A stretch of DNA of 64,000 bases from Terriglobia bacterium (GTDB lineage: Bacteria; Acidobacteriota; Terriglobia; Acidiferrales; UBA7541). The notes under the pieces are model-generated. The model searched no databases. It saw only the letters and a list, made by a program, of their open reading frames with translations, and was not told where the DNA came from. Within the stretch, counting starts at the first letter, position 1, and each line of letters opens with the position of its first letter. Positions 1,511 to 53,074 of this stretch are shown here, piece after piece. The stretch is taken from assembly GCA_020073705.1 (NCBI GenBank), contig JAIQES010000008.1, positions 1 through 64,000 on the forward strand, read 5' to 3'. The translations under genes were made by a program, and so were the position numbers.

Positions 1511-1513
1511 CGG

Positions 1514-5523: not shown

Positions 5524-5576
5524 TCTTTCCTTCTTTTTGGATTATTTCACCGCAGCGAGATGGAAATGCGGGCAGA

Positions 5577-33386: not shown

Positions 33387-33977
33387 CTATTCGCTGGCCC
33401 GCTGCCTAGCGCGATACAACTTCGACGCCGCCGTTATTTGGATCCTGTACCGAATGAGATCTTCGCTTACCTCAAACTTTTCGGCAAGATCAGGAATGGC
33501 CATTCCGCGATTTATTGCTGGGAAGAAGCTGCCCCAGGGAATTAGTGATGCTGCGCCTACACCGAACGCCTCTTCTTCTTGGGGTTTGTCGTAGTCGCGC
33601 ATACGCAGTCCATCCGCCTGACGAATCAACCTAGAAGGCACGTGTCGTAAGTGAACGTGCGTTATTTCTTCCATCAGTGTCATTCTTTTGCGACGTGGAT
33701 GATGTGTAGGATTCAATATGCAGATTCGCCTTCCGTCGGGGAGAGCTTCCGCAAAAACGCCGCCAGACCAATCGTCTTTGCCATTCAGGAGAATATGTCT
33801 CGAAATCCGTTGATCCAGACACCTGCAGACTTCGCGAGCGTCCATCAGGAGCAAACCAACTAGGGGCGCAAGTTTATACGGATCGAGTAGTTCATCTGTG
33901 GTGAGTTGCAGTCGTCTCCGCAAAGCCAGGGCGTGAGGCTCCCATCTTTTTGCTCGTTCGGAGAACGGCAGTAGCAC
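33387..33977 (-). CDS. ImmA/IrrE-family metallopeptidase-like protein with altered metal motif
   Basis: 196 residues from a GTG at 33977, 2 bases after the stop of the XRE gene. The region RRKRMTLMEEITHVHLRH aligns with the RxxFTLAHELGHxxLH core of ImmA/IrrE peptidases, but the first zinc-binding His is Glu (E103-E104-I-T-H107). A Glu-rich QEEEAF near residues 133-138 is where the third ligand usually sits. Homologues with MEE..H cores exist, so this may be a distinct subclass rather than a dead enzyme. The C-terminus has a helix-turn-helix-like stretch (IPDLAEKFEVSEDLIRYRI). With the upstream XRE repressor it forms a regulator-peptidase pair of the phage-type. Confidence 0.78.
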   Translation of the reverse strand: MLLPFSERAKRWEPHALALRRRLQLTTDELLDPYKLAPLVGLLLMDAREVCRCLDQRISRHILLNGKDDWSGGVFAEALPDGRRICILNPTHHPRRKRMTLMEEITHVHLRHVPSRLIRQADGLRMRDYDKPQEEEAFGVGAASLIPWGSFFPAINRGMAIPDLAEKFEVSEDLIRYRIQITAASKLYRARQRASE

Positions 33978-33979
33978 GC

Positions 33980-34363
33980 TTATTCTTTCTGCTGCTTTTT
34001 TACTGCCATGCCATAAGCAGCCTTGAACAGTTCAGATAAGGCATGGGCAGTATCGCGATTTAGATTCTTGTCAGCACGCAAGTACACATCCAGTATCTCC
34101 GGCGTTTGTTCCAAGTCCTTCCCGCCGCGAACTATCGGTTTGGGTTTTTGCTCACGCAACTCATTTAAGTCTTTCCCCAGCCATTCGGATAGTGCCAGCA
34201 GGGTGGCACTCTCGATATCTTTAGAGGCACCCCTTTCAATCCGAGACAGTGTAGGAATTTTCAGGTCGGTGATTTCCGCGAGTTGGCGTAGCGAGAGACC
34301 ATCTTTGCGTCGTTTTCGATGTACTAAACGGCCAAGCCGTGCGACGTCGATTCCTTCAGCCAT
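33980..34363 (-). CDS. XRE-family transcriptional regulator
   Basis: 127 residues from ATG 34363, chosen for its GAGGAGG site 4 bases upstream; a longer frame lacks one. Residues ~8-65 form the lambda-repressor-like helix-turn-helix: LGRLVHRKRRKDGLSLRQLAEITDLKIPTLSRIERG. The C-terminal ~55 residues are helical and charged. It is followed by the ImmA-like gene and is divergent from the ubiquitin-like/JAB gene across 163 bases that contain three copies of a TTCTC-N6-GAGAA repeat, the likely operators for both directions. Confidence 0.88.
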   Translation of the reverse strand: MAEGIDVARLGRLVHRKRRKDGLSLRQLAEITDLKIPTLSRIERGASKDIESATLLALSEWLGKDLNELREQKPKPIVRGGKDLEQTPEILDVYLRADKNLNRDTAHALSELFKAAYGMAVKKQQKE

Positions 34364-34396
34364 TGTCCTCCTCAGGGTGGATCGGCGTGATTGTAC

Positions 34397-34481
34397 TTCT
34401 CTTTGACGAGAAATGCTACTTGACAAGAAGCCAAAGTGATCGGATACTTTCTCATATACGAGAACTTCTCGTATTAGAGAT
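34397..34481. promoter_or_regulatory. Divergent control region with three operator-like repeats and a promoter
   Basis: TTCTC-N6-GAGAA occurs at 34397-34412 and 34449-34464, and with one mismatch at 34466-34481. The last two abut, creating the 19-bp perfect palindrome ATACGAGAACTTCTCGTAT (34456-34474). A sigma70-type promoter for the plus strand reads TTGACA (34420-34425), 17-bp spacer, GATACT (34443-34448), so its start would fall on the second operator. The XRE protein encoded leftward is the obvious candidate ligand, allowing it to shut off the Ubl-JAB/E1 module and itself. Confidence 0.75.
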
Positions 34482-34526
34482 ACACTGCCTCTGGTCCAGC
34501 AAACTGCCCATAAGGAGGGGCGCAAC

Positions 34527-35231
34527 GTGAACGTAATAGTGGAAAAGAAATTTGTCGTCGAGGTCGTCTACAACGGCGTAGAGAAGCCGTTCGATGTTCA
34601 ACCCGAGGAGCAGGTGACCGCCTTACTCCAGAAGGCGATTGCCACCTTTGGCATCACGCAGAATCCACACCTGTTGTCCCTTTTCCGGCAGGATGGCAGC
34701 GTCGTGCCTGAGAACGAGTCGGTTGAACGTGCTGGCATCAAGCCCGGTGAAATCCTTCTCCTCCGGCCGAATGCGGTAAAGGGCGGAGGTGGCCTTCTCC
34801 GAATGGCAAACGACGTCGTTCGCGCGACTTTTCGAACGCTGCGCGAATGTGGGCGCGGTGAATGTGAGTGCGCGGTGTTTTGGACTGGACCAGCGAGTGA
34901 CGATTTCGTGGACGGCTGCGAACACCCTGTCCACAATCGGTCACCCTTTGGCTACCAAGTTGAGGAAAGTTGGTTAATGGATTTCTGGAAACGCCTCGCA
35001 ATATCAAAGCGGAGCGTCAAAGCGCAGGTGCACACTCATCCGGGCGAAGCGTTTCACTCTGCGACTGACGATCAGTGGCCAATCGTCTCCCAGGTTGGCT
35101 TTATCTCGATCGTGATACCCGAGTTTGCAATTGGCAAGCCCACGTTGGACGACGCTTGGGTCGGTTGCCTCCAAGCAGACGGCAGGTGGCAACACCTTCG
35201 GTCGGCTGCCGACGCGGTTGTCTCCGCTTGA
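34527..35231 (+). CDS. Ubiquitin-like domain fused to a JAB/JAMM peptidase
   Basis: 234 residues from GTG 34527 behind AAGGAGGGG. Residues ~5-83 read as a ubiquitin-like beta-grasp (FVVEVVYNGVEKPFDVQPEE ... GIKPGEILLLRP). A run of four Gly at 86-89 ends this domain, at the place where Ub-like proteins are normally cut or activated. Residues ~93-225 are a JAB domain with the JAMM zinc site: Glu112/114, HTHP at 169-172, Ser178 and Asp181. The peptidase could release its own Ubl at the Gly run or remove conjugates. The stop overlaps the TTG start of the E1-like gene. Prokaryotic Ubl-JAB-E1 operons are known; in this one no E2 gene is visible. Confidence 0.82.
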   Translation: MNVIVEKKFVVEVVYNGVEKPFDVQPEEQVTALLQKAIATFGITQNPHLLSLFRQDGSVVPENESVERAGIKPGEILLLRPNAVKGGGGLLRMANDVVRATFRTLRECGRGECECAVFWTGPASDDFVDGCEHPVHNRSPFGYQVEESWLMDFWKRLAISKRSVKAQVHTHPGEAFHSATDDQWPIVSQVGFISIVIPEFAIGKPTLDDAWVGCLQADGRWQHLRSAADAVVSA

Positions 35232-36529
35232 CAGCCCTGGCTGAATTGAACCGGACTATTTTGCTCTGCCGCGATCATGTCATCGATGAACTGAGCGATG
35301 AAGAAATTTGTCAATGCTTCGAGTCGCGGAAAGTCCTTTGCGTTTCTGATCGGCGGAACCTTGCGTCATACAGCGGGCAGACGGCTCTCTTCACACTAGT
35401 TTCGCTATTGAGTCGGATGGGTATGCAGATTGAGCTGGCCATTCCTGATGTTGCCATGCTGTTCACGCAACCGCCAATGTCCGGCTCGTCTGTCCGGCAG
35501 GCATTGGTCTCATCTAGTGAATCCCTCGTTTCCGGGGCTACTGTCTGTTGTGATTCGACCTTTGCGCCCGAGATCGTTTTCGTTGTAGGAGACACACAGT
35601 TCGAAGGCAATCATGTTTCCTGCTGGCGTCTCACAGGCAGCGACTGGTGGGGAGCCTTAGCGATGGATAGAACGACCGGAGTCGATGCTTGGACTAGCGA
35701 ATGGCCGGTCGGTTCCATGATCAGTGCTGCCTTGGCTGCAAATGAGGCGTTTAAGTTCGTGATGCGCCGCCTTCCGCTACGCGGTCAAGCTGACCGAGTT
35801 TTCTTCGAAGAGTCACAGTCCTGCAATTGGGACTTTGGTGCGGTACATGTCCCTGAAGAGGGCGTTGATCTCGGCATGGTCGATGTGATCAGCGCCGGAG
35901 CAATTTGCCAGGCTGCTTTGTATGCGCTGATGCGCTTTCCGAATGTCAGAATGTCGGGGCGTATCTTCGATGATGACCTTACGGGAGCATCAAACCTGAA
36001 TCGAAATATGCTTAGCAGCGTTGCCGACATCGGTTTGCTCAAGGTACAGGTAGTTGCGCGATGCTGCAGCGCGAAACTGCGACTTAAACCTATCGCTGTT
36101 CGCTTCCCAGGCGATAGCTGCAAGATCGGGCAGTTGGCTCGCCGCGTTCTGGTGGGCGTTGACGATATTCCGAGCAGATGGGAAGTGCAGCGCCATGCTC
36201 CTGGCTGGATAGCTGTTAGCGGTACAAGCCATTTCGGTGTTTCATCATCAGCCCACCGCCCGGACGAACCTTGCTGTGGCTGTTTGCACCCTGTCGATGA
36301 TCCTGTCGGAGCAAATCCAATCCCGACTGTCTCATTCGTTTCTTTTTGGGCTGGGTTGGCCATGACAGTTCGGCTGCTCCGTGACGCGCTTGCCAGTTCA
36401 TATTCCGCGAATCGGCAGCATCTCTGGCTTACACCACTTAGGATGGATTTACCCCATGCCGGAATGTGGTTACCAGTTGCTCCTCGGCGAGATTGTCCGG
36501 CGCACTGCTTGGCTTCGCGTGTGCTGTAG
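35228..36529 (+). CDS. ThiF/E1-like activating enzyme with an extra N-terminal domain
   Basis: 433 residues from TTG 35228, which overlaps the upstream stop (TTGA); reading farther upstream would lie inside the JAB gene. The E1 adenylation domain is in residues ~215-420: VISAGAICQAAL takes the place of the usual GxGGxG, followed by RIFDDDLTGASNLNRN (the D..SNLNR motif), VLVGVDD, and two Cys pairs C349-C352 and C423-C427 that probably bind zinc. Residues 1-200 have Rossmann-like strands (SRKVLCVSDRR, ETVFVVGD-like) and look like an inactive or accessory half with no match I can name. It would adenylate the C-terminus of the Ubl upstream. There is no E2-like Cys domain in this protein. Confidence 0.8.
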   Translation: MTALAELNRTILLCRDHVIDELSDEEICQCFESRKVLCVSDRRNLASYSGQTALFTLVSLLSRMGMQIELAIPDVAMLFTQPPMSGSSVRQALVSSSESLVSGATVCCDSTFAPEIVFVVGDTQFEGNHVSCWRLTGSDWWGALAMDRTTGVDAWTSEWPVGSMISAALAANEAFKFVMRRLPLRGQADRVFFEESQSCNWDFGAVHVPEEGVDLGMVDVISAGAICQAALYALMRFPNVRMSGRIFDDDLTGASNLNRNMLSSVADIGLLKVQVVARCCSAKLRLKPIAVRFPGDSCKIGQLARRVLVGVDDIPSRWEVQRHAPGWIAVSGTSHFGVSSSAHRPDEPCCGCLHPVDDPVGANPIPTVSFVSFWAGLAMTVRLLRDALASSYSANRQHLWLTPLRMDLPHAGMWLPVAPRRDCPAHCLASRVL

Positions 36530-36763: not shown

Positions 36764-38146
36764 GTGGCACCAAAAGCTAAAGTGTGGACGCACCACTCCG
36801 TCCTGGCTCTTGCAGGAAATGCAGATCCTGTGGACCTGGTGACGGAGAAAGCCAGAGCAATCGTTATGGGAGCTATTGAAGATGGTTGGTCGGGCCCACC
36901 TTACGATCCATTTGCGTTAGCTGAACACCTGAAAATCCCAGTTGTCGCCCGTCAGGATATTTCCGAAGCACGAACCGTCCCGTCGAAGCAGGGTTTTGTT
37001 ATCGAATTCAATCCCAATCGACCTCGTAATCGAGTGAAGTACTCCATATGCCACGAGATCGCACACACGTGCTTTCCCGATTGTGCTGAACGCGTGAGGA
37101 ATCGCCTGACGCACGAGAAAATGACAGGCGATGACTGGCAGCTTGAAACATTGTGCAACATCGCTGCTGCCGAGATGCTGATGCCAATCGGTAGCGTGTC
37201 TGGGCTTGCTGATGAGCATTTGACGATCGACGCCGTCTTGGATTCCCGAAAGCGGCACGAAGTTTCGGCAGAGGCCGTTCTACTTCGGGCCGTCCGTCTG
37301 ACGAGCGGGCAGTATTCCGTATTCTGTGCATCGCGCAGGCCCGGGCAGGGCGGGCCATCGGACGACTACTCCATTGACTATGCTGTCTCCTCTAAGTCTT
37401 GGAGCACTGGCGTGATTCGTCCCGGCATGCCATTGCCCAAGGTCTCCGTCGTAGGTGAATGTATTGCGATCGGCTTCACGGCGAAGGGATACGATGAGTG
37501 GGCACTACCATTCGGAAGAGTACGCATCGAATGCGTGGGCGTCCCTCCATATCCAAATCAGATAATTCCACGTGTACTCGGAATCGTAGCACCGCAGCGG
37601 CAGGTGGCGGTGGATCATGCTCGCATCACTCACTTAGGCGGAGACGCGACACAGCCAAGGGGCAGTGGACCGCGGATTATCGCGCAGTTGGTCAACGACA
37701 GCGCATTCACCTGGGGTGGAGGATTGTCGCTGGCGGTTCGAAAAAAGTGGCCGACGGCCCAACAGGATTTCAGATCATGGGCGATGAACGACCGCAAAAA
37801 TCTTCGCCTTGGCAATCTCCATTTTGCCCCGATCGATGACACTCTCGGTGTCGCAAGCCTGATCGCACAACATGGATACGGACCGTCACCCAAACCTCGG
37901 ATTAGATATACGCACTTGAAGACCGCCCTTGAACAGTTGGGCGCACTGGCAAGTCAACACCATGCGTCCGTCCACATCCCTAGGCTTGGATGCGGACAAG
38001 CTGGTGGGTCCTGGAGCATTGTGAGTGAGTTGATTGAAGATGCGCTCTGTTCACGCGGAGTGAAAGTTTACGTATACGATCTTCCTGGTGTTGAAGTTAG
38101 GCAACACCCACAAGGGGCCCTGGCATTTAACGCAACTGGGGTGTAG
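36764..38146 (+). CDS. ImmA/IrrE metallopeptidase fused to a DarG/TARG1-type macro domain
   Basis: 460 residues from GTG 36764 behind GGGGGAGA. Residues ~25-190 form an ImmA/IrrE domain with an intact zinc site: HEIAH at 97-101 and Glu137 in AAAEMLMP. Residues ~195-285 are a beta-rich linker. Residues ~285-441 are a macro domain: ITHLGGDAT, IIAQLVND, GGGLSLAV (318-325) and HIPRLGCGQAGGSW (404-417), the last being characteristic of TARG1/DarG macro domains that remove ADP-ribose from DNA or proteins. The next gene starts 6 bases after its stop, and a DUF7002 gene two genes on could be an ADP-ribosylating partner. Peptidase and hydrolase in one chain suggests an antitoxin or damage-sensing role; inference. 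Confidence 0.83.
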   Translation: MAPKAKVWTHHSVLALAGNADPVDLVTEKARAIVMGAIEDGWSGPPYDPFALAEHLKIPVVARQDISEARTVPSKQGFVIEFNPNRPRNRVKYSICHEIAHTCFPDCAERVRNRLTHEKMTGDDWQLETLCNIAAAEMLMPIGSVSGLADEHLTIDAVLDSRKRHEVSAEAVLLRAVRLTSGQYSVFCASRRPGQGGPSDDYSIDYAVSSKSWSTGVIRPGMPLPKVSVVGECIAIGFTAKGYDEWALPFGRVRIECVGVPPYPNQIIPRVLGIVAPQRQVAVDHARITHLGGDATQPRGSGPRIIAQLVNDSAFTWGGGLSLAVRKKWPTAQQDFRSWAMNDRKNLRLGNLHFAPIDDTLGVASLIAQHGYGPSPKPRIRYTHLKTALEQLGALASQHHASVHIPRLGCGQAGGSWSIVSELIEDALCSRGVKVYVYDLPGVEVRQHPQGALAFNATGV

Positions 38147-38152
38147 TTCAAA

Positions 38153-39772
38153 GTGGCAAGACAAATTGTTCTTCTATCAGGCCGGGTGTCTGCGGGTAAG
38201 AGCACATTGTCCAAGGGGCTCGTGGAACGCTTTGGCGCCCACGTCCTCAAGACCAAAGAACTAATTGCCACTGCGGCTGGCACCAAAATCGAACCCGAGC
38301 GGGGAGCACATCAAAACTATGGCGACCTGTTGGATCGAAGAACCAATGGTGAGTGGGTGTCGCGTTCACTCACCAGAGTGGTCGAAGGACTTGATAACAA
38401 AGCTATCGTTGTCGTCGATTCTGTTCGCACCAGCGAGCAAGTTCGCGCCATTCGCAAAGCGTACGGCCCAATCGTTTTCCACATGCATCTGGAAGCCGAA
38501 GTTAATGTGTTGAAGGAGCGATACAAGCGCAAACAGCGCTTGAAGGGATTTCGAGAGTTCAAGTCCTACGCTGAAGTGTCATCGAACAAGACCGAAAACC
38601 GCATTGGATTGCTCGCCAGTGTTGCTGATGCCGTCATTAAGACTGACCGCTGTGTCGCACATGATGTAGTCATCCGTGCTGCCGCCCACTTGAGGCTCTT
38701 TGGTCGGGAACACTTGCGGCTCGTTGACGTACTGATTGGGGGTGAATACGGGAGCGAAGGTAAGGGCCACATCTCGGCCTACCTTGCACCAGAGTACGAC
38801 CTCCTCGTGCGCGTCGGAGGGCCGAACGCAGGTCACAAGGTATACGAAGACCCAAAACCATACATCCACCACCAACTTCCTTCCGGCACGCGCCGCAGTA
38901 ACGCGCAACTGATGATCGGACCAGGAGCAGTCCTAGACGTAGGCGATCTCTTGAAGGAAATTGCAGACTGCAAAGTTAGCCAGCAACGACTCTGTATAGA
39001 CCCCCACGCAATGGTTATCAATGCCCGGGATATCAAGTACGAAGGGAAAACCCTCGTTGGAAGTATCGGATCGACGGGACGTGGCGTAGGTGCAGCAACA
39101 GCACGAAAGGTTATGAGGGGTGCCGACGGCCGTCAGGTTCGACTTGCTAAGGACATTCCTGAGTTGAAACCTTTTGTTGGTGAGAGCCGATGGGTGCTAG
39201 AGAAGGCCTTTCGAGAGGGGGAAAAGATATTTGTTGAAGGCACGCAAGGCACTGGTCTCAGCTTGCACCATGGCAGCTACCCACACGTGACATCTAGGGA
39301 CACAGCAGTTGCAGGCTGTCTTTCCGAAGCTGGGATCGCACCCAGCCACATACGAAGGGTCATCATGGTGTGTCGTACATATCCGATCCGTGTGAAGAGC
39401 CCATCAAAAAAGCGGACTTCAGGTCCGATGTCTCAAGACTTGAATTGGCGCACCATTGCTAAACGCTCTGGCAATGAAGAGCGCAAGCTGCGGCAAATCG
39501 AGATCGGGTCAACCTCGGGTAGAAGACGCCGCGTGGGAGAGTTTGAGTGGGATTTGTTCCGTCGAGCGGTCATGCTGAACGGGCCCACCGATATTGCACT
39601 AACTTTTGCAGATTATATTCATGCGAGTAATACTCACGCCCGGCGATTCGAGCAGTTGACAGATGAAACGATTCAGTTTATCGAGGAACTCGAACGGGTT
39701 GCGTCTGCTCCGGTATCTCTAATTTCTACTAGGTTTGATCATAGAAGCATAATCGACCGCCGGTCATGGTGA
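38153..39772 (+). CDS. P-loop nucleotide kinase fused to a PurZ-like adenylosuccinate synthetase
   Basis: 539 residues from GTG 38153. Residues 1-175 are a P-loop kinase: GRVSAGKST (Walker A), VVVDSVRTSEQVRAIRK, and a lid-like RYKRKQR, similar to dNMP/dephospho-CoA-kinase-like domains. Residues 190-539 match the short archaeal-type PurA: GGEYGSEGKG (196-205), GGPNAGHK (222-229, with the catalytic His228), GSTGRGVG, VEGTQGTGLSLHHGSYPHVT (361-380), TSGRRRRVGEF for the aspartate site, and HRSIIDRRSW at the end. In housekeeping PurA the P-loop is GDEGKG; here the catalytic Asp is Ser201, the change reported for phage PurZ, which joins aspartate to dGMP on the path to 2-aminoadenine. It is not a housekeeping purA; the substrate is unproven. 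Confidence 0.85.
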   Translation: MARQIVLLSGRVSAGKSTLSKGLVERFGAHVLKTKELIATAAGTKIEPERGAHQNYGDLLDRRTNGEWVSRSLTRVVEGLDNKAIVVVDSVRTSEQVRAIRKAYGPIVFHMHLEAEVNVLKERYKRKQRLKGFREFKSYAEVSSNKTENRIGLLASVADAVIKTDRCVAHDVVIRAAAHLRLFGREHLRLVDVLIGGEYGSEGKGHISAYLAPEYDLLVRVGGPNAGHKVYEDPKPYIHHQLPSGTRRSNAQLMIGPGAVLDVGDLLKEIADCKVSQQRLCIDPHAMVINARDIKYEGKTLVGSIGSTGRGVGAATARKVMRGADGRQVRLAKDIPELKPFVGESRWVLEKAFREGEKIFVEGTQGTGLSLHHGSYPHVTSRDTAVAGCLSEAGIAPSHIRRVIMVCRTYPIRVKSPSKKRTSGPMSQDLNWRTIAKRSGNEERKLRQIEIGSTSGRRRRVGEFEWDLFRRAVMLNGPTDIALTFADYIHASNTHARRFEQLTDETIQFIEELERVASAPVSLISTRFDHRSIIDRRSW

Positions 39773-39778
39773 GGTCAA

Positions 39779-40456
39779 TTGCCAATATCGCGCGAACAGT
39801 TCATCGAGTATTACCCACATCTCTACCACATGGCTGAACTTGGAGCATGGGCATCTATCCATCGCCACGGTCTGCTGAGTACCACTGCACTGCTAGATCT
39901 CTTCTCGATTGATGGTGACGCGCGTTACCAGCTTGAAAGCCGCCATCGACCTCGATCGGAACAAATCAACAACTCCCAACTCGGGACAGCCACCATTAGG
40001 GATCAAGGGCCAATGAGTGATAGTGCGTTGGTTAAGTGCCTTCGTGGGATGACTCCTCGTGAGTGGTACGAACTGCTCAATCGTATGGTGTTTTTTTGGG
40101 TCACGGAAGAGCGAGTCAACAATCTTCTCGAAGCACGGCGATATCGCGACGGGGAGCACACTGTAATCACTGTCGATACCGCAAGCCTCCTAGAGCACCA
40201 CAACGGTAGAATCAAACTGTCTCCGATCAACAGCGGAAGCACTCTATACAAACCCCAACCGCGCGGGCGCAATACATTCCTGCCGCTTACTGACTATCCC
40301 TACGCGGATCGCCGAAAGAAGCGTGGCATCGCAAATGCCGTTGCGGAATTAGCTGTGGACTACTCAGTTCCTGATCTGTTGGAGCACGCCGTCAGGGTCG
40401 AGCGTCGCCATAGATCGCTGGTTGTAGAAGTCATTTACGAAAAACATGGAGCTTAG
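39779..40456 (+). CDS. DUF7002-family protein, ADP-ribosyltransferase-like
   Basis: 225 residues from TTG 39779 with GAGG upstream, 6 bases after the kinase-PurZ-like gene. The N-terminus (YYPHLYHMAELGAWASIHRH then GLLS) has the H..............GLL pattern that opens DarT-, Tpt1- and RES-type ADP-ribosyltransferase folds; later conserved parts are VFFWVTEERV, SPINSGSTLY and GRNTFLPLTDYPY. I recognise the overall pattern as DUF7002. An ADP-ribosyltransferase activity is inference from the fold-like start and from the macro domain encoded two genes upstream. If active, it would be the toxin or effector of this three-gene cassette. Confidence 0.68.
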   Translation: MPISREQFIEYYPHLYHMAELGAWASIHRHGLLSTTALLDLFSIDGDARYQLESRHRPRSEQINNSQLGTATIRDQGPMSDSALVKCLRGMTPREWYELLNRMVFFWVTEERVNNLLEARRYRDGEHTVITVDTASLLEHHNGRIKLSPINSGSTLYKPQPRGRNTFLPLTDYPYADRRKKRGIANAVAELAVDYSVPDLLEHAVRVERRHRSLVVEVIYEKHGA

Positions 40457-40537: not shown

Positions 40538-43500
40538 ATGATTTCGTGCCCGGAAATCGGTCAATTGGTGGTCGTTCGTAAGCGCCCTTTCGTGGTGACC
40601 GAAATAATCCCATCCGTCACGAATCCTGCGAAGCCGAATCACCTCCTTAAGCTTTCCTCCGTCGAAGACGATGGTTTGGGTGAAGAGATGGAGGTGATAT
40701 GGGAGCTAGAACCCGGCACCTCGATTCACGAGAAGTCTACCCTGCCAGTTCCTAGCGCATTCGATGATCCCAAGCGGCTGCAGGCGTTTCTAGATGCTGT
40801 CCGCTGGGGAGCCATATCCCAGTCTGACGATAGAGAGCTTCATTCACCCTTCCGCAGCGGTATCGAGATCGATGAATACCAGCTTGATCCAGTAGTTCGA
40901 GCACTCTCGATGCCACGTGTAAACCTATTGATCGCGGATGACGTTGGCCTCGGTAAGACGATCGAAGCTGGGCTCGTTGTGCAAGAACTCATCCTTCGTC
41001 ACCGGGTTCGATCTGTTCTGATTGTGTGCCCCTCGTCTCTTCAAATACAGTGGCAAGAAGAGATGCGCGATAAGTTTGGGCTTGAATTTCGGATTGTCGA
41101 TAGCGAGAGTATCAGCCAACTTAGACGCAAACGTGGAATCCACTTAAATTCTTGGGCACACTTTCCACGACTGATCACCTCCATCGATTTCCTCAAACGC
41201 GAACGTCCGTTGCGTGCGTTCAAGGAAACACTGCCGAGCGGAGATGAACCTACATATCCGCGAGCGTACGACTTGCTTATCGTCGACGAAGCTCACAACG
41301 TCGCCCCATCCGGGCGGGGGAAGTACGCCACAGATTCAATGCGAACTTTAGCGGTAAGAACTCTGGCTCCTCATTTTGAACACAAGCTATTTCTCTCGGC
41401 CACTCCCCACAACGGATACCGGGAGAGTTTCTCAGCATTATTGGAATTGCTAGATAGTCAGCGTTTTGCCCGTGCAGTTTTGCCTGACCGCGCGCAGCTC
41501 GATGCGGTCATGGTTCGGAGGATGAAGTCCGAACTGAAGCTGAATTGGGATGGCAGTCGCCGCTTTGCCGAACGGGTCGTCAAACACATGGAGGTGCCGT
41601 ACACAGAAGAGGAGAGGACTGCCCATCAGATGCTTCAGAACTATTCCGCGCTACGTTTGAAGAGTGCGGACAGCGCCGGTGAGCGGCTTGCGGCAGAATT
41701 TGTCTTGAAGCTCCTCAAGAAGAGATTGTTCTCCTCACCGGCGGCTTTCAGCACCACACTCGATAAACATATTGCATCTGTCGGCGCACGGAAGGCCACA
41801 GCCAGCCTGCAGCGGGAATTTGACGAGTATGACCAGGACTATGCAGACGATGAACTGTATGAGACCGAAACCGCCGAGGTGGTCGGTTCTGCGAGCCAAG
41901 TGTTGTCCCCGCTGTTGGAAGATGAGCGCAAGCTCCTGAAACAGCTAAGGCAGTTTGCAACAAGATCGAGCCAGCGTGCGGACTCCAAAGCACAGACTCT
42001 CATTGATTGGCTGAAGAAATCTTTGCGTCCGGGCGGGAAATGGAACTCTGAACGCGTCATCATTTTCACCGAGTACAGGGCTACACAAAAGTGGCTCTAT
42101 AACTTGCTCGCGGTTCATGGTCTGGTAGAAGAAGGTCGACTCGAATTGATATACGGGGGAATGCAAAGCGACGAGAGAGAGCGCATCAAAGCTGCATTTC
42201 AAGCGAATCCGAAAGACTCCGCGGTTAGAATTCTGCTTGCAACGGATGCTGCGTCAGAAGGCGTGAACCTCCAGAATCACTGTTCGAAGCTGATTCACTA
42301 TGAGATTCCTTGGAACCCGAACCGAATGGAACAGCGAAACGGTCGTGTCGACCGACACGGACAACGGGCCCCGGAAGTTCACATTCATCATTTCGTGGGC
42401 CAGGGATTCAACTCCGCCCAAATGTCGGGCAAAGTCGGCGATCTCGAAGCTGACCTTGAATTTCTCATGCGCGCTGCCCTGAAAGTAGAAACCATTCGTG
42501 AAGACCTAGGCAAAGTCGGGCCAGTCATCGCCACCCAAGTCGAAGAAGCCATGCTTGGCAAGCGAACCAGGCTAGATACATCCCGTGCCGAACTAGAGGC
42601 TGAGCCCGTGCGCCGCATGCTGAAGTTCGAGCGCAAACTGCGAGAGCAACTCGAAAAGCTGGCGGCTCAGCTCGACGAGACGCGCAATGAGTTGAAACTC
42701 ACTCCTGAACATATTGAGAATGTAGTTCGGGTTGGGCTTGAACTTGCCGACCAGCCACCGTTGGTCCCAGTCAAATTGGACGGCATTTGGCCTGACCCAA
42801 GTGAAATTAGAAAGACCTCCCCAGTATTTCGATTGCCCGCTCTGTCGGGAAGCTGGGCACTCTGTGCTGAGGGACTTGCTCACCCGCACACCCACCAGAT
42901 TCGCCCCATCGTATTCGATCCGGTCTTGGCAACTGGTAGGGACGACGTCGTACTTGCGCATCTCAACCACCGTCTCATACAGATGTGTCTGCGGTTACTC
43001 CGCGCAGAGATCTGGAAAATTGGCGCTACGACCAAGCATCTTTCGCGTGTATCTGCTTGTGTGGTCGAAGACTCCGCTCTTTCCAATCCGGTCGTCGTCG
43101 CTCACGGTCGCATTGTGGTTCTGGGAGGCGATAATCATCGCATTCATGAGGAAATCATCATGGCGGGTGGTGCTTTCATCGAAGGTAAGTTCCAGCGACT
43201 GAACGTGGGGGAAACGAAATCTGCTTTTGCAGCAGGGACTTCAATCCCGGCACCAGAACCTGTCCAAATTCGGCTACAGGCGCTCTGGTCAAAGAACGAA
43301 GAAGCAGTCATGGCTGCTCTGGAAGCACGATGCAACGAGCGCACTAAGAATTTGGAAAAGAACCTTCAGGAGATTGCCGAGAAAGAAGTAACTAAGGTCA
43401 GAACCGTGATGCAGGAGTTGCAACGGGCGATTCGCGAAGAATTGGAACGCAAGGATGGACCACAACTGCTACTGGACCTCGGCGGCGACGAGAGGGCCCA

Positions 43501-43681
43501 ACGAGAACGAGACTTGTCTTCCCTCCGGCGGAGGCTCAATGAAATTCCCGCAGAAATTGAGCGGGAGTCAGCCCACCTGCGCGATCGGTACAAGAATCCA
43601 ACCGAGCGACTTTTCCCAGTCGCTGTGACCTTTCTGATCCCGCGGAAGCTTGTGCGCGGGCTAGTGGGAGGACATTCGTGA
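40538..43681 (+). CDS. drmD: DISARM SNF2-like helicase DrmD
   Basis: 1047 residues. SNF2/RapA-type helicase: Walker A DDVGLGKT (134-141), VDEAHN (249-254) and a C-terminal helicase lobe with FTEYRATQKWL, ATDAASEGVNLQ and RMEQRNGRVDRHGQ (RNGRxDRxGQ motif VI). The last ~150 residues form a long coiled coil (ERTKNLEKNLQEIAEKE...). DrmD with the class 1 methyltransferase identifies class 1 DISARM, a defence that methylates host DNA and blocks incoming phage DNA. Start ATG 40538; the stop overlaps the next start (GTGA), and all five genes are on one strand with little or no spacing. Confidence 0.93.
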   Translation: MISCPEIGQLVVVRKRPFVVTEIIPSVTNPAKPNHLLKLSSVEDDGLGEEMEVIWELEPGTSIHEKSTLPVPSAFDDPKRLQAFLDAVRWGAISQSDDRELHSPFRSGIEIDEYQLDPVVRALSMPRVNLLIADDVGLGKTIEAGLVVQELILRHRVRSVLIVCPSSLQIQWQEEMRDKFGLEFRIVDSESISQLRRKRGIHLNSWAHFPRLITSIDFLKRERPLRAFKETLPSGDEPTYPRAYDLLIVDEAHNVAPSGRGKYATDSMRTLAVRTLAPHFEHKLFLSATPHNGYRESFSALLELLDSQRFARAVLPDRAQLDAVMVRRMKSELKLNWDGSRRFAERVVKHMEVPYTEEERTAHQMLQNYSALRLKSADSAGERLAAEFVLKLLKKRLFSSPAAFSTTLDKHIASVGARKATASLQREFDEYDQDYADDELYETETAEVVGSASQVLSPLLEDERKLLKQLRQFATRSSQRADSKAQTLIDWLKKSLRPGGKWNSERVIIFTEYRATQKWLYNLLAVHGLVEEGRLELIYGGMQSDERERIKAAFQANPKDSAVRILLATDAASEGVNLQNHCSKLIHYEIPWNPNRMEQRNGRVDRHGQRAPEVHIHHFVGQGFNSAQMSGKVGDLEADLEFLMRAALKVETIREDLGKVGPVIATQVEEAMLGKRTRLDTSRAELEAEPVRRMLKFERKLREQLEKLAAQLDETRNELKLTPEHIENVVRVGLELADQPPLVPVKLDGIWPDPSEIRKTSPVFRLPALSGSWALCAEGLAHPHTHQIRPIVFDPVLATGRDDVVLAHLNHRLIQMCLRLLRAEIWKIGATTKHLSRVSACVVEDSALSNPVVVAHGRIVVLGGDNHRIHEEIIMAGGAFIEGKFQRLNVGETKSAFAAGTSIPAPEPVQIRLQALWSKNEEAVMAALEARCNERTKNLEKNLQEIAEKEVTKVRTVMQELQRAIREELERKDGPQLLLDLGGDERAQRERDLSSLRRRLNEIPAEIERESAHLRDRYKNPTERLFPVAVTFLIPRKLVRGLVGGHS

Positions 43682-46600
43682 GCGTTGCGCGAGATCACGC
43701 CGACTGGCTTTCACTGCTGGAAATCTCCGGCCCGTTCGTTTCCATGCCGGTGTTGATGCGTGTTTTTCCCCAAGGTCTTGACCCTCGGGACCCGGAACAG
43801 GCCCGGCAATTGCGACTGGCCTATGAAGAATGGCAGAGCAACCCTACAGGCCCAGGAAAACAGCGAGGCTGGATCAATCACGTACTGACGCAGCTGTTGA
43901 AGTTCCCAACGGATCTGATTGCAGAAGGTCAAAGCTTACCACCTGGGCTGAGCGCAGCGATGCCTGAGTATGGGGAGACTCTTCGGCCAGATCTGGCACT
44001 TGTAGGTCCGAAAGGCACTGACGCTGCGGGGAAGCCCCAGCTTCTTGTGAGCATCTACCCGCCTGACCAACTGCTTGACCGACCCGTGGCAGGTAAGCAT
44101 TGGAAGGCCATCCCCGCTACGCGCATGATGGAACTTCTCCATGCCGCGGATATCCCGCTTGGCTTGGTGACGAACGGCGAGGAATGGATGTTGGTCTTTG
44201 CTCCCCGCGGCGAAACAACTGGCTTCGCCTCGTGGTACGCCACGCTGTGGATCGAAGAGCAGGTCACGCTTCGAGCGTTTCATTCACTGCTTTCCATAAG
44301 CCGATTTTTCGGAGTAGCAGCATCCGACACTCTTTCCGCCCTATTGAAGGAAAGTGCGCAAGACCAACAAGAAGTCACCAATCAGTTAGGCGATCAAGTT
44401 CGTGACGCAGTTGAAGTTTTGATCCAAGCATTCGACCGGCTTGATCACGAAAGTGGCCGAGCGTTGCTGAAGGGCGTCGAGGAGAAAACCCTATACGACG
44501 CGGCACTCACTGTCATGATGCGCCTCGTCTTTCTGTTCTCAGCAGAAGAACGTGATTTGCTTCATCTCGGAAGGCCCATCTATGACAACAACTACGCCGT
44601 TTCCACCTTGCGAGAGCAGCTGCAGGAAGTTGCCGATCGATACGGCGAAGAAGTGCTGGAACGGCGCTATGACGCGTGGGCTCGTCTACTTTCCAGTTTT
44701 AGGGCCGTGCATGGAGGCGTTCAGCACCAAGACTTACTGATGCCAGCCTACGGTGGCTCGCTCTTCGACCCGAACCGCTATGCTTTCCTCGAAGGGCGTA
44801 CGCAAGAGACTGATTGGCGCGTGACAGCCGCAGAACCTCTCGCGATCAACAATCGCGTAGCTCTACATCTGCTCAAGTCGCTCCAGATGTTGCAAGTCAG
44901 AGTTGCCGGTGGTGGGAGGGCAGAAGCCCGGCGAATCAGTTTCCGCGCCCTCGATATCGAGCAGATTGGACACATATACGAAGGTCTTCTGGACCACAGC
45001 GCCTTTAGAGCTCGGGAAACAGTGCTCGGGCTTGTTGGCACACGAAGGAACACCACTCCAAACATCGCTTTGGACGAGCTCGAAGAACTAGCCAAGAAGG
45101 GCGAAGACAATCTACTTGAGGAACTCAAAGAGCTGACTGGCCGCAGTATTCCTGCATTGAAAAAAGAGTTGGCGGTAAGAGCTGGCGAAGATAACCACAA
45201 GATTCTCGTCGCCTGTGGACAAGAGGAGAAATTGACCGAGCGGGTCACGCGATTTGCAGGACTCCTGCGTGAGGATTCATTTGAACGTCCAGTCGTTGTC
45301 TTGCAAGGAGGGATCTACGTCAGCGAGGGCACCGCTCGAAGCAGCACTGGCACGCACTACACACCTCGAAGCCTGACTGAGCCGATTGTCCAACACACCA
45401 TCGAGCCTCTGGTCTATCGGGGGCCTGCCGAGGGCCTTTCCAAAGAGCAGTGGGAGCTCAAAGCGCCTCACGAAATCCTAGATCTTAAAGTATGTGACAT
45501 GACAATGGGCTCGGGTGCCTTTCTCGTCCAAGTTTGCCGGTATCTTTCAGAGCGCCTGGTGGAGTCCTGGGAGAACCTGGAAAAAGCACATCCCGGAGAA
45601 CTGTTGATAACACCAGAAGGGCTCTTCTCAAGAGGTGAACCAAGCGAACGATTGATTCCGCAGGAGGCCGACGAGCGCCTCGCAATTGCTCGTCGATTGA
45701 TTGCCGACCGATGCCTATACGGTGTTGATATAAATCAAATGGCTGTTGAGATGGCGAAGCTTTCGATCTGGCTGATCACTGTGGATAGGACTCGACCATT
45801 CACGTTCCTTGACCACGCGTTGAAGTGCGGTGATTCTCTTCTAGGAATTTCAAGGGTTAAGCAACTGGAGAAGTTCAGCCTCGATGATGATCATGAGACC
45901 CAGCTAATTATTCTCTCCAATTACCAGGAGCTATTGCGAGGTGCAGTTGCGAAGCGCCGCACACTCGAAGCGCTGCCGAGCAATGACGCTGAGCAAGTTG
46001 CTTCTAAACAAATCCTCAACTCTGAGGCTGATGAGCTCATGAGTCGATTGGAACTTGCATGCGATCTGCTAGTCGGGGCTACGCTCAAGGCGCTAAAAGG
46101 CAAGGAAGAAGAACTAGCTCGTGCAAAGGCTCATCTTAATGTTATCGAATACTTTGAAAAGCCTTTAAAGGAGTTTCGTAATTTCGTTCGCGAACAAATC
46201 AAAGATCGATACCCATTTCACTGGCCACTACGGTTTCCAGAAGTCTTCGAGAGCGGGGGGTTTGATGCGGTAATAGGCAACCCTCCGTACCTCGGAGGAT
46301 CACGGATATCGGGGACACTAGGTGACGATTACCTTTCGTTTCTATTACGGGCCTTCCCAGACACTTCAGGCAATGGTGACCTAGCGTCATTCTTCATCAG
46401 GCGAGCGGCACAACTCCTCCGGAATAACGGTTCACTTGGTCTTGTTACAACCAATTCGATTTCCCAAGGAACTACACGAGAGAATTGCTTGGATCACTTG
46501 GCCAGCAACGGATATCAGATCTATCGAGCGTGGAAAACTACTACTTGGCCTGGAGGCGCAAACGTTTTCGTTAGTATTCTGCATATCTTCAAGGGTTGCT

Positions 46601-47721
46601 GGTTTGGAGAAATTATGTTGGGAGACCGTAAGGTCACCGGCATCTCACCATACCTAGACTCCTCTATTTTGGAATTCAACCCCAAAAGATTGTCCAGAGC
46701 TCTTGGAATCGTCTTCCGGGGTTCAACAATCAGCGGAGAAGGGTTCATCTTGACGGAAACAGAGAAAAGGCAACTTATCGAAACTGATCCAAAATCCGCG
46801 GATGTAATTAAACCTTTTTTAACTGGGCAGGACATTAACCAAAGACCACTTCAGCGATCGGAACGCTTTGCCATAGATCTTGATGGCATGCCAGAAGAAA
46901 AGGCAAGGGTTTACAAAGCATGCTGGGAGTGGCTGTATAACACAGTTCGAATTCAGCGCCAAGGTAATAAGATTGCCAGCCGCGAGAGATTTTGGTGGCA
47001 GTACATCGGACGTCAAGAAGGACTTTATTCCGCGATAGCGGGATTCACGAGAGTCTTAGGTTGTGGACAAGTTTCAAAATATTGGGCAGTGTCATGGCTT
47101 GAACCGGGCCAGGTCTTTGCTGATAAAGTCGTGGTGTTCGCGCTGTCTTCCGATGCTCATTTTGCCGTGCTAAATTCCTGTTTTCATACGGAATGGGCGG
47201 AGAAGACATCTTCTAGATTGAAAGATGACCCAAACTATAACCTAGCGAAAACATTCGAAACCTTTCCGTTCCCAGTCGAGAACTCCTCGCTGAATGGGAT
47301 TGGTGACAGTTTTCATGCCCAAAGGCAGCAGTGTATGAGATCGCGGCTTGAGGGTTTAACTTCCATCTACAATCGGTTGCATGACGATTCCGAAAGTTCC
47401 GCGGACATAAGTCGACTGCGGGCGCTACAAAAAGAGATGGACCACACTGTGGCTGCAGCATATGGATGGAATGATTTGGACTTAAAGCATGATTTTTACA
47501 TCACAGCTCAAGGGGTACGTTACACGATTTGTGACGACGCTCGTCGAGCTGTTCTCGATCACCTTCTGGCACTGAATCACAAATGCTACTTGGAAGAAAC
47601 GTCGAGTGGGTCAGTAAGGAGCAGGACCAAAAACCAGGTGAGGAAGAGTCACAAGAACGGTGGCGGATCCCAGGACAAATCCAACCAGAACGCTCTGTTT
47701 ATTGCGGAGGATCTCAAGTGA
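43678..47721 (+). CDS. drmMI: DISARM class 1 adenine DNA methyltransferase DrmMI
   Basis: 1347 residues from GTG 43678, overlapping drmD. N6-adenine methyltransferase motifs: DMTMGSGAF at 607-615 (SAM) and NPPY at 868-871 (catalysis). The N-terminal ~550 residues are helical and shared by this class of long Type IIG/BREX-PglX-like methyltransferases; the part after NPPY holds the target-recognition region. Bases ~46100-47300, which encode that part, are visibly more AT-rich than the first half. It would mark host DNA and so let the other DISARM proteins recognise unmodified phage DNA. Its stop overlaps the drmA start (GTGA). Confidence 0.93.
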   Translation: MSVARDHADWLSLLEISGPFVSMPVLMRVFPQGLDPRDPEQARQLRLAYEEWQSNPTGPGKQRGWINHVLTQLLKFPTDLIAEGQSLPPGLSAAMPEYGETLRPDLALVGPKGTDAAGKPQLLVSIYPPDQLLDRPVAGKHWKAIPATRMMELLHAADIPLGLVTNGEEWMLVFAPRGETTGFASWYATLWIEEQVTLRAFHSLLSISRFFGVAASDTLSALLKESAQDQQEVTNQLGDQVRDAVEVLIQAFDRLDHESGRALLKGVEEKTLYDAALTVMMRLVFLFSAEERDLLHLGRPIYDNNYAVSTLREQLQEVADRYGEEVLERRYDAWARLLSSFRAVHGGVQHQDLLMPAYGGSLFDPNRYAFLEGRTQETDWRVTAAEPLAINNRVALHLLKSLQMLQVRVAGGGRAEARRISFRALDIEQIGHIYEGLLDHSAFRARETVLGLVGTRRNTTPNIALDELEELAKKGEDNLLEELKELTGRSIPALKKELAVRAGEDNHKILVACGQEEKLTERVTRFAGLLREDSFERPVVVLQGGIYVSEGTARSSTGTHYTPRSLTEPIVQHTIEPLVYRGPAEGLSKEQWELKAPHEILDLKVCDMTMGSGAFLVQVCRYLSERLVESWENLEKAHPGELLITPEGLFSRGEPSERLIPQEADERLAIARRLIADRCLYGVDINQMAVEMAKLSIWLITVDRTRPFTFLDHALKCGDSLLGISRVKQLEKFSLDDDHETQLIILSNYQELLRGAVAKRRTLEALPSNDAEQVASKQILNSEADELMSRLELACDLLVGATLKALKGKEEELARAKAHLNVIEYFEKPLKEFRNFVREQIKDRYPFHWPLRFPEVFESGGFDAVIGNPPYLGGSRISGTLGDDYLSFLLRAFPDTSGNGDLASFFIRRAAQLLRNNGSLGLVTTNSISQGTTRENCLDHLASNGYQIYRAWKTTTWPGGANVFVSILHIFKGCWFGEIMLGDRKVTGISPYLDSSILEFNPKRLSRALGIVFRGSTISGEGFILTETEKRQLIETDPKSADVIKPFLTGQDINQRPLQRSERFAIDLDGMPEEKARVYKACWEWLYNTVRIQRQGNKIASRERFWWQYIGRQEGLYSAIAGFTRVLGCGQVSKYWAVSWLEPGQVFADKVVVFALSSDAHFAVLNSCFHTEWAEKTSSRLKDDPNYNLAKTFETFPFPVENSSLNGIGDSFHAQRQQCMRSRLEGLTSIYNRLHDDSESSADISRLRALQKEMDHTVAAAYGWNDLDLKHDFYITAQGVRYTICDDARRAVLDHLLALNHKCYLEETSSGSVRSRTKNQVRKSHKNGGGSQDKSNQNALFIAEDLK

Positions 47722-50700
47722 CCGCACCTATTCTAACACCTCACACGATCCGTGGAACTCTCACGAATATGGTCATTAGTGATCTACTGGGACCTGCGGG
47801 CGGTTTGACGGAAGAACTCGATCAACGTGAAGACCACGTCTATCAGCGCTACCTGATTGGGATGTTGGCACCGAAGGCTTTAGAGTTAGCTGGTGAAGAA
47901 ATGGACGAGCTGGCGACTGACGAGAGCGAGGATGGTGAAGAAGGAACGGCCGAGAGTGGAGTACCCGCAGGAAGCACGTATTTCCCCTCGTCAATGGGCA
48001 TGAGCTTCGTCGTCGATGGGGACACAAGGGAAATCCAGATCGAAACAGAGTGGGGCCGCTACCTGCGCATTAAGAGCGAGAGCCAAGTTAAGAAGGACGG
48101 AAATCCAGCCCCAGTATGGAAGCGTGAACACATCATTGGCAATCCGCTAATTCTGCAACTCAAGGACGGCCCCATCGAGCCGTATACGCCCCGTGTTGGG
48201 CAGCCTCTGGTTGTGCTGCAAGGACGCATGCGTCTTACGAAGGATAGCTGGGTAGTGACTGTATTTCTGATCAACAACCAAATAGAGCGCAAAGCGAAAA
48301 ATGAGCCCAAAGACGAAGTGTGGGTTTTCCAGCCGAAGATTCGCGCGCATGGTGTTGATGGCCAACCGCTATTTGTTCAGCGGAAGGGCGTCAAGGGTGA
48401 TCTCTCCAAAATGGACCCTTTGACGCGTGAAGAGATTGAAACATTGGAAATGCTCTATCGACACCAGCGAGAATTCGCGGTCGGGCATGGAGTTTCGATT
48501 CACGCAACTTTACCGGAGCCATTCGCAGAAAAGGCAACGCAGGTTGAAACGGAATGGGCGCCAGTCTTTGAGGTTGCACAGCAAACACCTCGCACAACTG
48601 CCGATGACCTGAACCTGAGCGGTTTAGTCCTCGATATGAAATTGCTCGCTGAGCTTCCCAAGAAAGATTTGATTGCGAGCCTTCGAAAACTTGAAGAGGC
48701 ATACGGAATTTGGATTGGCACCGAAAAGGCCAAGCTGACGAATCCATCTGAGAAATTGGCGGGGCACGAGCATGCAGCGGAGCGAGCCATCGAGGGGTGC
48801 ACCCGCGCACAGGAGCGAATCAAAGCGGGCATTGATCTAATCGAGAGCAATCAGAACGCTGAAGATGCGTTTCGATTTGCAAGCAGGGCTATGTGGAAAC
48901 AGCGCATCCACTCCGTATTCTCGAGGAAGGTTCGGAAGAAGGAGATAAAGCCCGAAGATGGAGTCGACTCTCAAGATGCCACGGGCAATCGCAGTTGGCG
49001 CCTTTTCCAACTTGCCTTCATTCTGCTCAACCTTCCTAGCTTGACTGATTTGCATCATCCGGATCGTAGCCACGACACGGAAGCCGTCGCTGATTTACTT
49101 TGGTTTGCCACCGGTGGCGGCAAGACGGAAGCCTATCTCGGTTTGACGGCTTACACTCTGGCCCTTCGACGATTGCAGGGGGAAATTGAAGGTCGTACAG
49201 GCGATCACGGCGTGGCCGTGCTCATGCGCTACACCCTACGACTTCTAACCTTGCAACAATTCCAACGAGCCGCGGCTCTTCTGTGTGCCTGCGAAGTGAT
49301 TCGACGAGAGGACGTAAAGAAGTGGGGCGACACTCCTTTTCGTCTTGGACTTTGGGTCGGGCGCAATGCAACACCAAATACGCTGGCTAAAGCGGCTGAA
49401 TCCTTACGACAAGGGCGTTCAGGCGGGCGTCCGTCGGGTGGCGGAAGCCCTCACCAAATTACCTCCTGCCCTTGGTGCGGAACGGAGATCAAGGAAGCAC
49501 ACCTACGAGTGTATGAAGCCCCGAGCGATGTTGGCCGGTGCGTGACCTACTGCGGCGACAACCTGGGACGTTGTGAGTTTTCAGAAGCAAAGTCCCCGCG
49601 CGAAGGGCTTCCGGTGATAGTGGTTGACGAAGATATCTACCGCCATCCGCCGTCTCTGCTCATAGCTACTGTCGACAAATTCGCTCAGATGCCATGGCGT
49701 GGCGAAACCCAAATGTTGTTTGGAAAGGTGAATGGCATTTGCACGCGACATGGTTTTCGCTCACCAGAAATTGAGGATGCGAATTCGCATCCGCCAAGAA
49801 ACGGCTTACCCAAGGCTCAAACACTCCCACACGAATTCCTGAGGCCACCGGATCTCATCATCCAGGACGAACTACATCTGATTAGCGGTCCGTTGGGTTC
49901 AATGGTCGGGCTGTATGAGTCTGCAGTCGACGAACTTTGCTCTTGGGAAGTCGGGGGCAAGCGTGTCAGACCCAAAGTGATTGCTTCGACCGCTACGATT
50001 CGACGTGCACCAGACCAGGTTCGCAAACTCTTCGTTCGTGAGCTTGATGTCTTCCCCCCGCAGGGAACGAGTATTCAGGACAGCTTCTTCGCTATTCAGC
50101 GCCCGATCGGCGAGAAATACCCAGGACGAAGATATTTGGGCATTTGCGCCTTTGGCCGTCGTTACCCCGTAGCGATGATCCGCACATACGTCGCCTATAT
50201 GGCCGCGGCTCAAGCACTCTTCGATCAGTACGACAATCTCGCAGATCCGTGGATGACAGTTGCAGGGTATTTCAACTCCATCCGGGAGCTGGCGGGCACC
50301 CGCCGACTTGTGGAAGACGATATCCGCGCCCGATTGCGCGACGCGGACCAGCGTGGACTTGCGAAGCGACGTGTGCGAGCGGTAGAAGAACTCACCTCAC
50401 GGAAGTCGGGCACAGACATCCCGAAGATTCTTGAACGACTTGAAGCGAGATTCGATAAGGCTCTTGAAGCTCAGCGGGCCCAGGAAAGAAAAGAAGGAAA
50501 GCCACCTAGTTCACCCACACCTTACGATGTGGTTCTCGCGACAAACATGATCTCTGTCGGGGTTGATATTGATCGTCTTGGATCGATGATCGTCGCAGGT
50601 CAACCGAAGAACACTTCGGAATACATTCAGGCGACAAGCCGCGTTGGCCGTTCGGCGGAGGGGCCCGGTTTGGTGTGTACCCTATACAATTGGGCTCGGC

Positions 50701-51203: not shown

Positions 51204-51223
51204 TAGTCGGACCCAGGGGAGAT

Positions 51224-53071: not shown

Positions 53072-53074
53072 CAC

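Follow-up and report, generated by a model that had tools for sequence, protein, structure and literature searches.

Why would a soil bacterium carry in its chromosome an apparent relative of the phage enzyme PurZ, and why should that enzyme be fused to a kinase? Synthesis of 2-aminoadenine (Z) is a phage trait that aids resistance to restriction. The question is raised by a 64,000-nucleotide stretch of a Terriglobia contig (positions 1 to 64,000 of JAIQES010000008.1; hereafter, the window), for which an earlier sequence-only reading had described a P-loop kinase joined to a short archaeal-type PurA domain. The reading frame itself is as described (38153-39772, + strand): it has a GTG start, encodes 539 aa and is free of internal stops. 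The motifs are also where they were said to be, namely the P-loop SGRVSAGKST (residues 9-18), Ser201 within GSEGKG, His228 within PNAGH, and the Arg-rich loop SGRRRR (residues 455-460). The protein thus comprises an N-terminal NMP-kinase-like P-loop domain (residues 1-185; 38153-38707) and a Ser-type adenylosuccinate-synthetase (PurZ-like) domain (residues 191-539; 38723-39772) in which Ser201 replaces the catalytic Asp of PurA. Gaps of 6 bp separate its gene from an upstream gene for an IrrE-macrodomain protein and a downstream DUF7002 gene. This is not a chance reading frame, given that three other bacterial genomes encode a protein 56%-68% identical in the same gene order and that all three genes are under purifying selection (estimated dN/dS below ~0.1, with synonymous sites (dS) saturated). 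A pseudogene is likewise ruled out, because the frame is intact and the estimated dN/dS is so low.

The synthetase domain is easily recognized as a member of its superfamily (Pfam Adenylsucc_synt, E = 1.3e-58), and the class to which it belongs requires more care. Among NCBIfam models, the short archaeal-type adenylosuccinate synthetase (AdSS) ranks first (289 bits), followed by PurA and PurZ (PurZ 199 bits, E = 9.4e-59). The curated PurZ cut-off of 300 bits is not reached, and for this reason "PurZ-like" is the safe name. At the residue level, the equivalent of Ser201 is Ser in all 23 fused proteins, and it is Ser in every phage PurZ and PurZ0 sampled, in line with the earlier claim that the Asp-to-Ser change is a mark of PurZ. 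The fusion and PurZ also have in common Ser307, Arg408, and the PIRV...SGP segment. Asp occupies the position in PurA of the host, of related bacteria, and of P. horikoshii, so Ser is not a common state of the housekeeping enzymes of this lineage. According to a published survey (PMC12884076), every one of 147 phage PurZ has Ser, the position is Ser or Gly in four archaeal relatives, and the E. coli PurA group conserves Asp at 99%. It should be noted that the frequency of Ser among our viral matches is inflated and cannot count as independent evidence, Ser having been part of one of the two search patterns.

Phylogeny points the same way. A carefully built tree of 58 rows under a mixture model (a larger quick tree was also made) places all Ser-type sequences in one clade of 50 rows with support of 100/100. 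This clade includes PurZ of phiVC8, SH-Ab 15497, and OH and PurZ0 of Wayne, Ghobes, Keanu, and Jera; outside it lie P. horikoshii PurA, an AdSS from a 7-deazapurine cluster, and bacterial PurA, including that of the host. The domain therefore groups with the phage enzymes, apart from archaeal-type and bacterial PurA, in the comparison that the sequence-only reading had proposed. The fused proteins form a subclade of the Ser clade (100/98). That this subclade branches first within the Ser clade is compatible with an AU test (p = 0.288), so the fused proteins may, but need not, stem from within phage PurZ, and a further AU test, on the DUF7002-associated cassettes as a single clade, gave p = 0.067, a value that does not fix the question. 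A housekeeping or duplicate PurA is ruled out by the lost Asp, by the tree, and by a separate, full-length, ordinary PurA with the Asp motif elsewhere in the host genome (G000). Overall, membership of the Ser-type (PurZ) class is well supported, and conversion of dGMP to dSMP is the activity that we would predict from it.

The predicted substrate gains from the binding pocket, where those dGMP-base residues of PurZ (taken from PMC8342488) that were checked are retained, including Ser201, Asn225, Thr308, and Gln365. Elsewhere the window protein is PurA-like, at Arg457 and Asp487. The latter residue is shared with PurA and PurZ0, whereas PurZ has Asn in this GTP site, and the predicted phosphate donor is thus GTP, not ATP. 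Assignment of the kinase domain is broader. Its Pfam match is weak (AAA_33, 1.5e-5), and a profile of its family compared with the PDB matches AK9, AdkA-like, AK1, adenylate, and UMP/CMP kinases. The kinase also matches part of the PADLOC dCTPase model (3.4e-4). The host genome has PurB-type genes of the adenylosuccinate lyase superfamily.

The sequence-only reading correctly noted the DUF7002 neighbor (39779-40456, + strand; 225 aa; Pfam DUF7002, 1.6e-72) and overlooked both its fold and its constant pairing with the fusion. To our knowledge, DUF7002 is a Pfam family without known function, and our search of the literature, mostly open access, found no paper on it and none on an adenylosuccinate synthetase in anti-phage defense. 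An AlphaFold2 model built from eight homologues reached a pLDDT of 91.6 and a pTM of 0.89 (with four input sequences, the pLDDT was 43). Of the 46 best PDB matches that Foldseek gave for this model, nearly all have an ADP-ribosyltransferase (ART) fold, the top ones being E. coli DarT1 (8baq, E = 3.8e-4, probability 1.00), DarT, Tpt1/KptA, and several bacterial ADP-ribosylating toxins. TM-scores against solved ARTs are modest, about 0.3-0.45, and so support the fold and not a target. A comparison of the DUF7002 profile with PDB sequences gave no credible match, and hhalign and hmmsearch comparisons with DarT were negative (the DarT set consisted partly of wrong ORFs); the ART assignment consequently rests on the fold comparison. 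One protein of genome G045 matches both DarT (4.5e-12) and DUF7002 (3e-5), which is a hint only. Taken together, the model supports an ART fold for DUF7002, as a statement about fold and not about reaction or target. His17 and Glu190 are among the invariant residues of the alignment and, by analogy with DarT, for which E160A is an inactive mutant (PMC5179494), Glu190 is a candidate catalytic residue of the predicted effector. Shorter members of the family occur in Chloroflexota with no PurZ-like gene nearby (L055, 9124-9546; L056, 8700-9359; L058, 1801-2454), and thus DUF7002 also has an independent existence.

The macro domain that had been reported beside the fusion is present, as the C-terminal part of a 460-aa protein (36764-38146, + strand) that begins with an IrrE/CapP-type metallopeptidase (HEIAH). 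Support comes from Pfam Peptidase_M78 (6.5e-5) and from PADLOC CapP (7.6e-18) and DarG (6e-9); the NCBIfam DarG match (2.8e-8) is under the cut-off of that model. The HExxH motif is intact in all seven homologues checked. A DarT-like fold beside a DarG-similar macrodomain, encoded in the same operon, brings to mind a toxin-antitoxin pair: DUF7002 would be a toxin directed at DNA or RNA, with the macrodomain protein as antitoxin and with the kinase-PurZ in an accessory role, to protect or repair the nucleotide pool. We consider this improbable, because the invariable partner of DUF7002 is the kinase-PurZ, whereas the macrodomain gene is the third gene in just seven of 16 cassettes (the window included), and because a Pfam search matched the DUF7002 protein to its own family only, and not to the DarT family PF14487.

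The three genes (36764-40456) lie in a chromosomal defense island, as previously suggested. Upstream is a Bil-like pair, comprising a ubiquitin-like + JAB protein (34527-35231, + strand; PADLOC BilC, 2.8e-14) and an E1/ThiF-like protein (35075-36529, + strand; PADLOC BilD, 4.2e-21; Pfam ThiF, 1.2e-4) whose true start is uncertain, as the ORF overlaps the preceding gene. Beside the Bil-like genes, on the - strand, is an HTH regulator and IrrE-type peptidase pair (33387-34525) resembling an ImmR/ImmA switch. Downstream is a type 1 DISARM system (40538-53869, + strand), for which DrmD and DrmMI were called by NCBIfam and PADLOC, and DrmA, DrmB, and the PLD-type DrmC by position and reading of the sequence. 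We treat the Bil-like and DISARM genes as context only, and the cassette was rejected as a DISARM component, DISARM genes not having been seen beside the homologous cassettes L005, L006, L012, and L022. E1-like genes adjoin PurZ-like ones at three loci: the window (34527-36529), L057 (a ThiF-type protein, 893-3214), and L020. Searches with Pfam, NCBIfam, and PADLOC found no deaminase or SIR2 match among the cassette genes.

The fusion was called unusual in the sequence-only reading. The cassette to which it belongs is indeed rare, being found in two of 297 Acidobacteriota genomes (one of them the kinase-less L051, below) and two of 301 Chloroflexota genomes, as expected of a mobile accessory, yet it is conserved and not a single oddity. 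Counting the window, there are 16 loci at which the fusion directly precedes DUF7002; they belong to Acidobacteriota, to Chloroflexota, to replicons of alphaproteobacteria, and to prophages or mobile elements. All 13 copies from cellular genomes and plasmids (again with the window) have DUF7002 at -11 to +8 bp after the fusion, often with overlapping frames. A scan of genome contigs recovered the fusion from three MAGs, two of Acidobacteriota (68% and 67% identity) and one of Dehalococcoidia (56%), where the order IrrE-macro, kinase-PurZ-like, DUF7002 is that of the window and the flanks are unrelated. The flank of the L005 cassette is a type I RM system; another full trio, in a Chloroflexota genome (L057), adjoins an integrase. 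A narrow-pattern scan of viral contigs gave no match, but further scans of viral contigs, an alignment scan among them, did find copies: one beside a serine recombinase and a type I RM system (L022), a prophage cassette with an extra kinase and without the macro gene (L023), and a prophage with the full trio (L091). Eight plasmid records (Rhizobium, Sinorhizobium, Agrobacterium, and Methylobacterium) have the fusion followed by DUF7002 and, in place of the macro protein, nearby genes for a YfbR-like HD protein and for a protein of 453 aa. The rhizobial HD enzyme matches phage dNMP phosphatases (6e-65) and, weakly, dATP triphosphohydrolase. The 453-aa protein is conserved beside the rhizobial cassettes (L012, 13659-15020, with equivalents in L013-L019) and has no Pfam, PHROG, or PADLOC match; by eye, its C-terminal part resembles PEP-synthase-type ATP-binding domains. 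At a 17th locus, L051, the synthetase and DUF7002 are intact and the kinase is lost. A tandem-repeat tract with stops in all frames (reverse strand, about 5500-6700) is located at the expected kinase position.

Sister fusions without DUF7002 occur in phage replication modules (L082, L083, L085, L087, and L090). In L083 and L087 the fusion is downstream of a family-A polymerase (Pol I), in L085 it is inside a helicase/primase/UDG-polymerase module, and a nucleoside-deoxyribosyltransferase-MazG protein is encoded directly downstream of it in L090 and near it in L082. Z-phages use the deoxyribosyltransferase-like DmtZ, the MazG-like MazZ, and the Pol I-type DpoZ (PMC12884076). The neighbors of the phage copies appear to follow this Z-DNA gene pattern, and gene content suggests that the metabolic setting is that of deoxynucleotides.

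These phage copies, being among the closest relatives, together with the prophage copies (L023 and L091), give some weight to the idea that the fusion is self-serving phage cargo, supplying a mobile element or prophage with dZ nucleotides for its DNA and inherited by chromosomes with no immune role. We find this hard to favor and quite unlikely. A tblastn search of the 64-kb window found no match to DpoZ, DatZ, or MazZ; the ART pairing is conserved; the genes are intact under purifying selection; and some copies reside on large plasmids, others in islands with RM or DISARM. It is also rather unlikely, in our estimation, that the substrate of the Ser-type synthetase is a ribonucleotide, or an ADP-ribose-linked nucleotide made by the ART, as part of a tailoring pathway that does not involve dZ. 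Such chemistry would suit an enzyme whose obligate partner is an ART, with a macrodomain added at some loci, with PurA-like residues at 457 and 487, and with a score under the PurZ cut-off; against it stand the retained dGMP-base residues and the deoxynucleotide enzymes that adjoin the relatives.

Unfused Ser-type synthetases were also encountered. In the Acidobacteriota loci L052 (5486-10117) and L053 (4776-9951), genes for an exonuclease-like/DUF429 protein, a standalone NMP kinase, an unfused Ser-type synthetase, and a DCD-like protein with a membrane segment form an operon type that is possibly another nucleotide-based system. The standalone kinase of L053 matches the phage dNMP kinase family phrog_139 (4.8e-10) and the PADLOC dCTPase model (2e-12). 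Plasmid pMl5 of Sinorhizobium medicae (L020, 5296-9937) encodes an HD dNMP-phosphatase-like protein, an unfused Ser-type synthetase, and a DCD-like protein, with BilD adjacent (1e-165). Separately, the conjugative plasmid p3 of Rhizobium leguminosarum OyaliB (L021, 5363-11617) has an apparent 7-deazapurine nucleoside cluster (folE, AdSS with Asp, purB, queE, IMP dehydrogenase, a nitrile-hydratase-like gene, and queC), and this type of AdSS is also found on several related R. leguminosarum plasmids. A pathway of that kind was rejected for the fusion, as Asp is present in the L021 AdSS, whose branch lies close to P. horikoshii PurA.

The reading that we prefer, while holding it at somewhat less than even confidence, is that 36764-40456 is a mobile defense cassette whose kinase-PurZ makes, from dGMP, a nucleotide of the 2-aminoadenine type, which then triggers the ART or is modified by it. 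dGMP, normally scarce, would rise as an incoming phage breaks down or remodels DNA. The PurZ domain would join it to aspartate, probably with GTP, to give dSMP, which host PurB would convert to dZMP, and the fused kinase would phosphorylate the product of PurZ/PurB toward dZTP. The dZ nucleotide might then activate DUF7002 or be its acceptor, either free or, as the preferred acceptor, once in new DNA; with NAD+, DUF7002 would ADP-ribosylate nucleic acid or some other target, and phage growth would be blocked. The macrodomain, where present, may remove ADP-ribose, or sense ADP-ribosylation or a nucleotide, and the IrrE domain may control expression or self-toxicity. Synthesis of dSMP/dZMP and the kinase steps are the likeliest parts of this scheme, and the exact coupling to DUF7002 is its weakest link.

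The neighbors of the cassettes (DISARM, type I RM, integrase, serine recombinase, and prophage) point to a defense or mobile setting, and a deoxynucleotide role is favored by Pol I, UDG/Pol, and NDT-MazG beside the sister fusions, by the rhizobial HD enzyme, and by the PurB-type genes of the host. Counting against the cassette reading are the absence of the macrodomain gene from the rhizobial cassettes and L023, the loss of the kinase in L051, the missed PurZ cut-off, the modest TM-scores, and the negative DarT profile comparison. A competing defense would be depletion, in which kinase-PurZ drains dGMP/dGTP along with aspartate and nucleoside triphosphates, much as deaminases drain dCTP, and DUF7002 is an independent second arm. 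Deoxynucleotide depletion is an established form of defense (AvcID; PMC10511110), and both the fused and the L053 kinases match the dCTPase model. However, depletion requires no kinase acting on the product, and DUF7002, as an invariable neighbor in cellular genomes with frames that often overlap, argues for a joint mechanism, leaving depletion unlikely in our view. With an ART fold in the constant partner, DUF7002, coupling of an effector to the nucleotide product is now more probable than depletion by itself. The wider proposition, that bacteria turned the phage Z pathway into a weapon or alarm, with a dZ-type product of kinase-PurZ switching on the ART or the ART attacking Z-containing nucleic acid, strikes us as clearly less likely than not. 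If it is true, cells use 2-aminoadenine chemistry against phages, immunity via non-canonical nucleotides extends beyond dITP, and DUF7002 gains a first function; if a dZ nucleotide is the signal, this would be a new class of system. The presence of the cassette in cultured alphaproteobacteria makes these ideas directly testable.

PurZ, DarT-type ARTs, macrodomains, and non-canonical nucleotide signaling are each known already, and our literature search (mostly open access) found no paper on the combination of kinase-PurZ with an ART-fold partner. AvcID and the defense dCTP deaminases (PMC10511110) resemble the cassette in altering the deoxynucleotide pool, as we propose for the cassette, and in the likeness of its kinase to part of the PADLOC dCTPase model, but the cassette has no deaminase and would instead ligate aspartate to a purine. 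DarTG (PMC5179494) similarly places a DarT-like ART fold next to a DarG-similar macrodomain protein; in the cassette, however, DUF7002 belongs to a family of its own, the macrodomain comes joined to an IrrE peptidase and is missing from some loci, and the constant partner is kinase-PurZ. In Kongming (KomABC), dITP made from dAMP is the immune signal that triggers NAD+ loss (PMC12948488; PMC12774641). The proposed logic is alike (a dNMP is converted to a non-canonical deoxynucleotide, a dNMP kinase acts toward the triphosphate, and the effector uses NAD+), although the cassette has a synthetase rather than a deaminase, its own kinase rather than that of the phage, and an ART rather than the NAD+-depleting KomB-KomC complex; the likeness is one of logic. 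Also close are the phage PurZ/PurZ0 enzymes, PurZ being succino-2-amino-deoxyadenylate synthetase (PMC8342488; PMC12884076), which share with the fusion the Ser in place of the PurA Asp, the short archaeal-type domain, the clade, and, for the phage copies, related gene neighborhoods. Unlike them, the cassette enzyme is fused to an NMP kinase, resides in bacterial genomes and plasmids, and is followed by a predicted ART.
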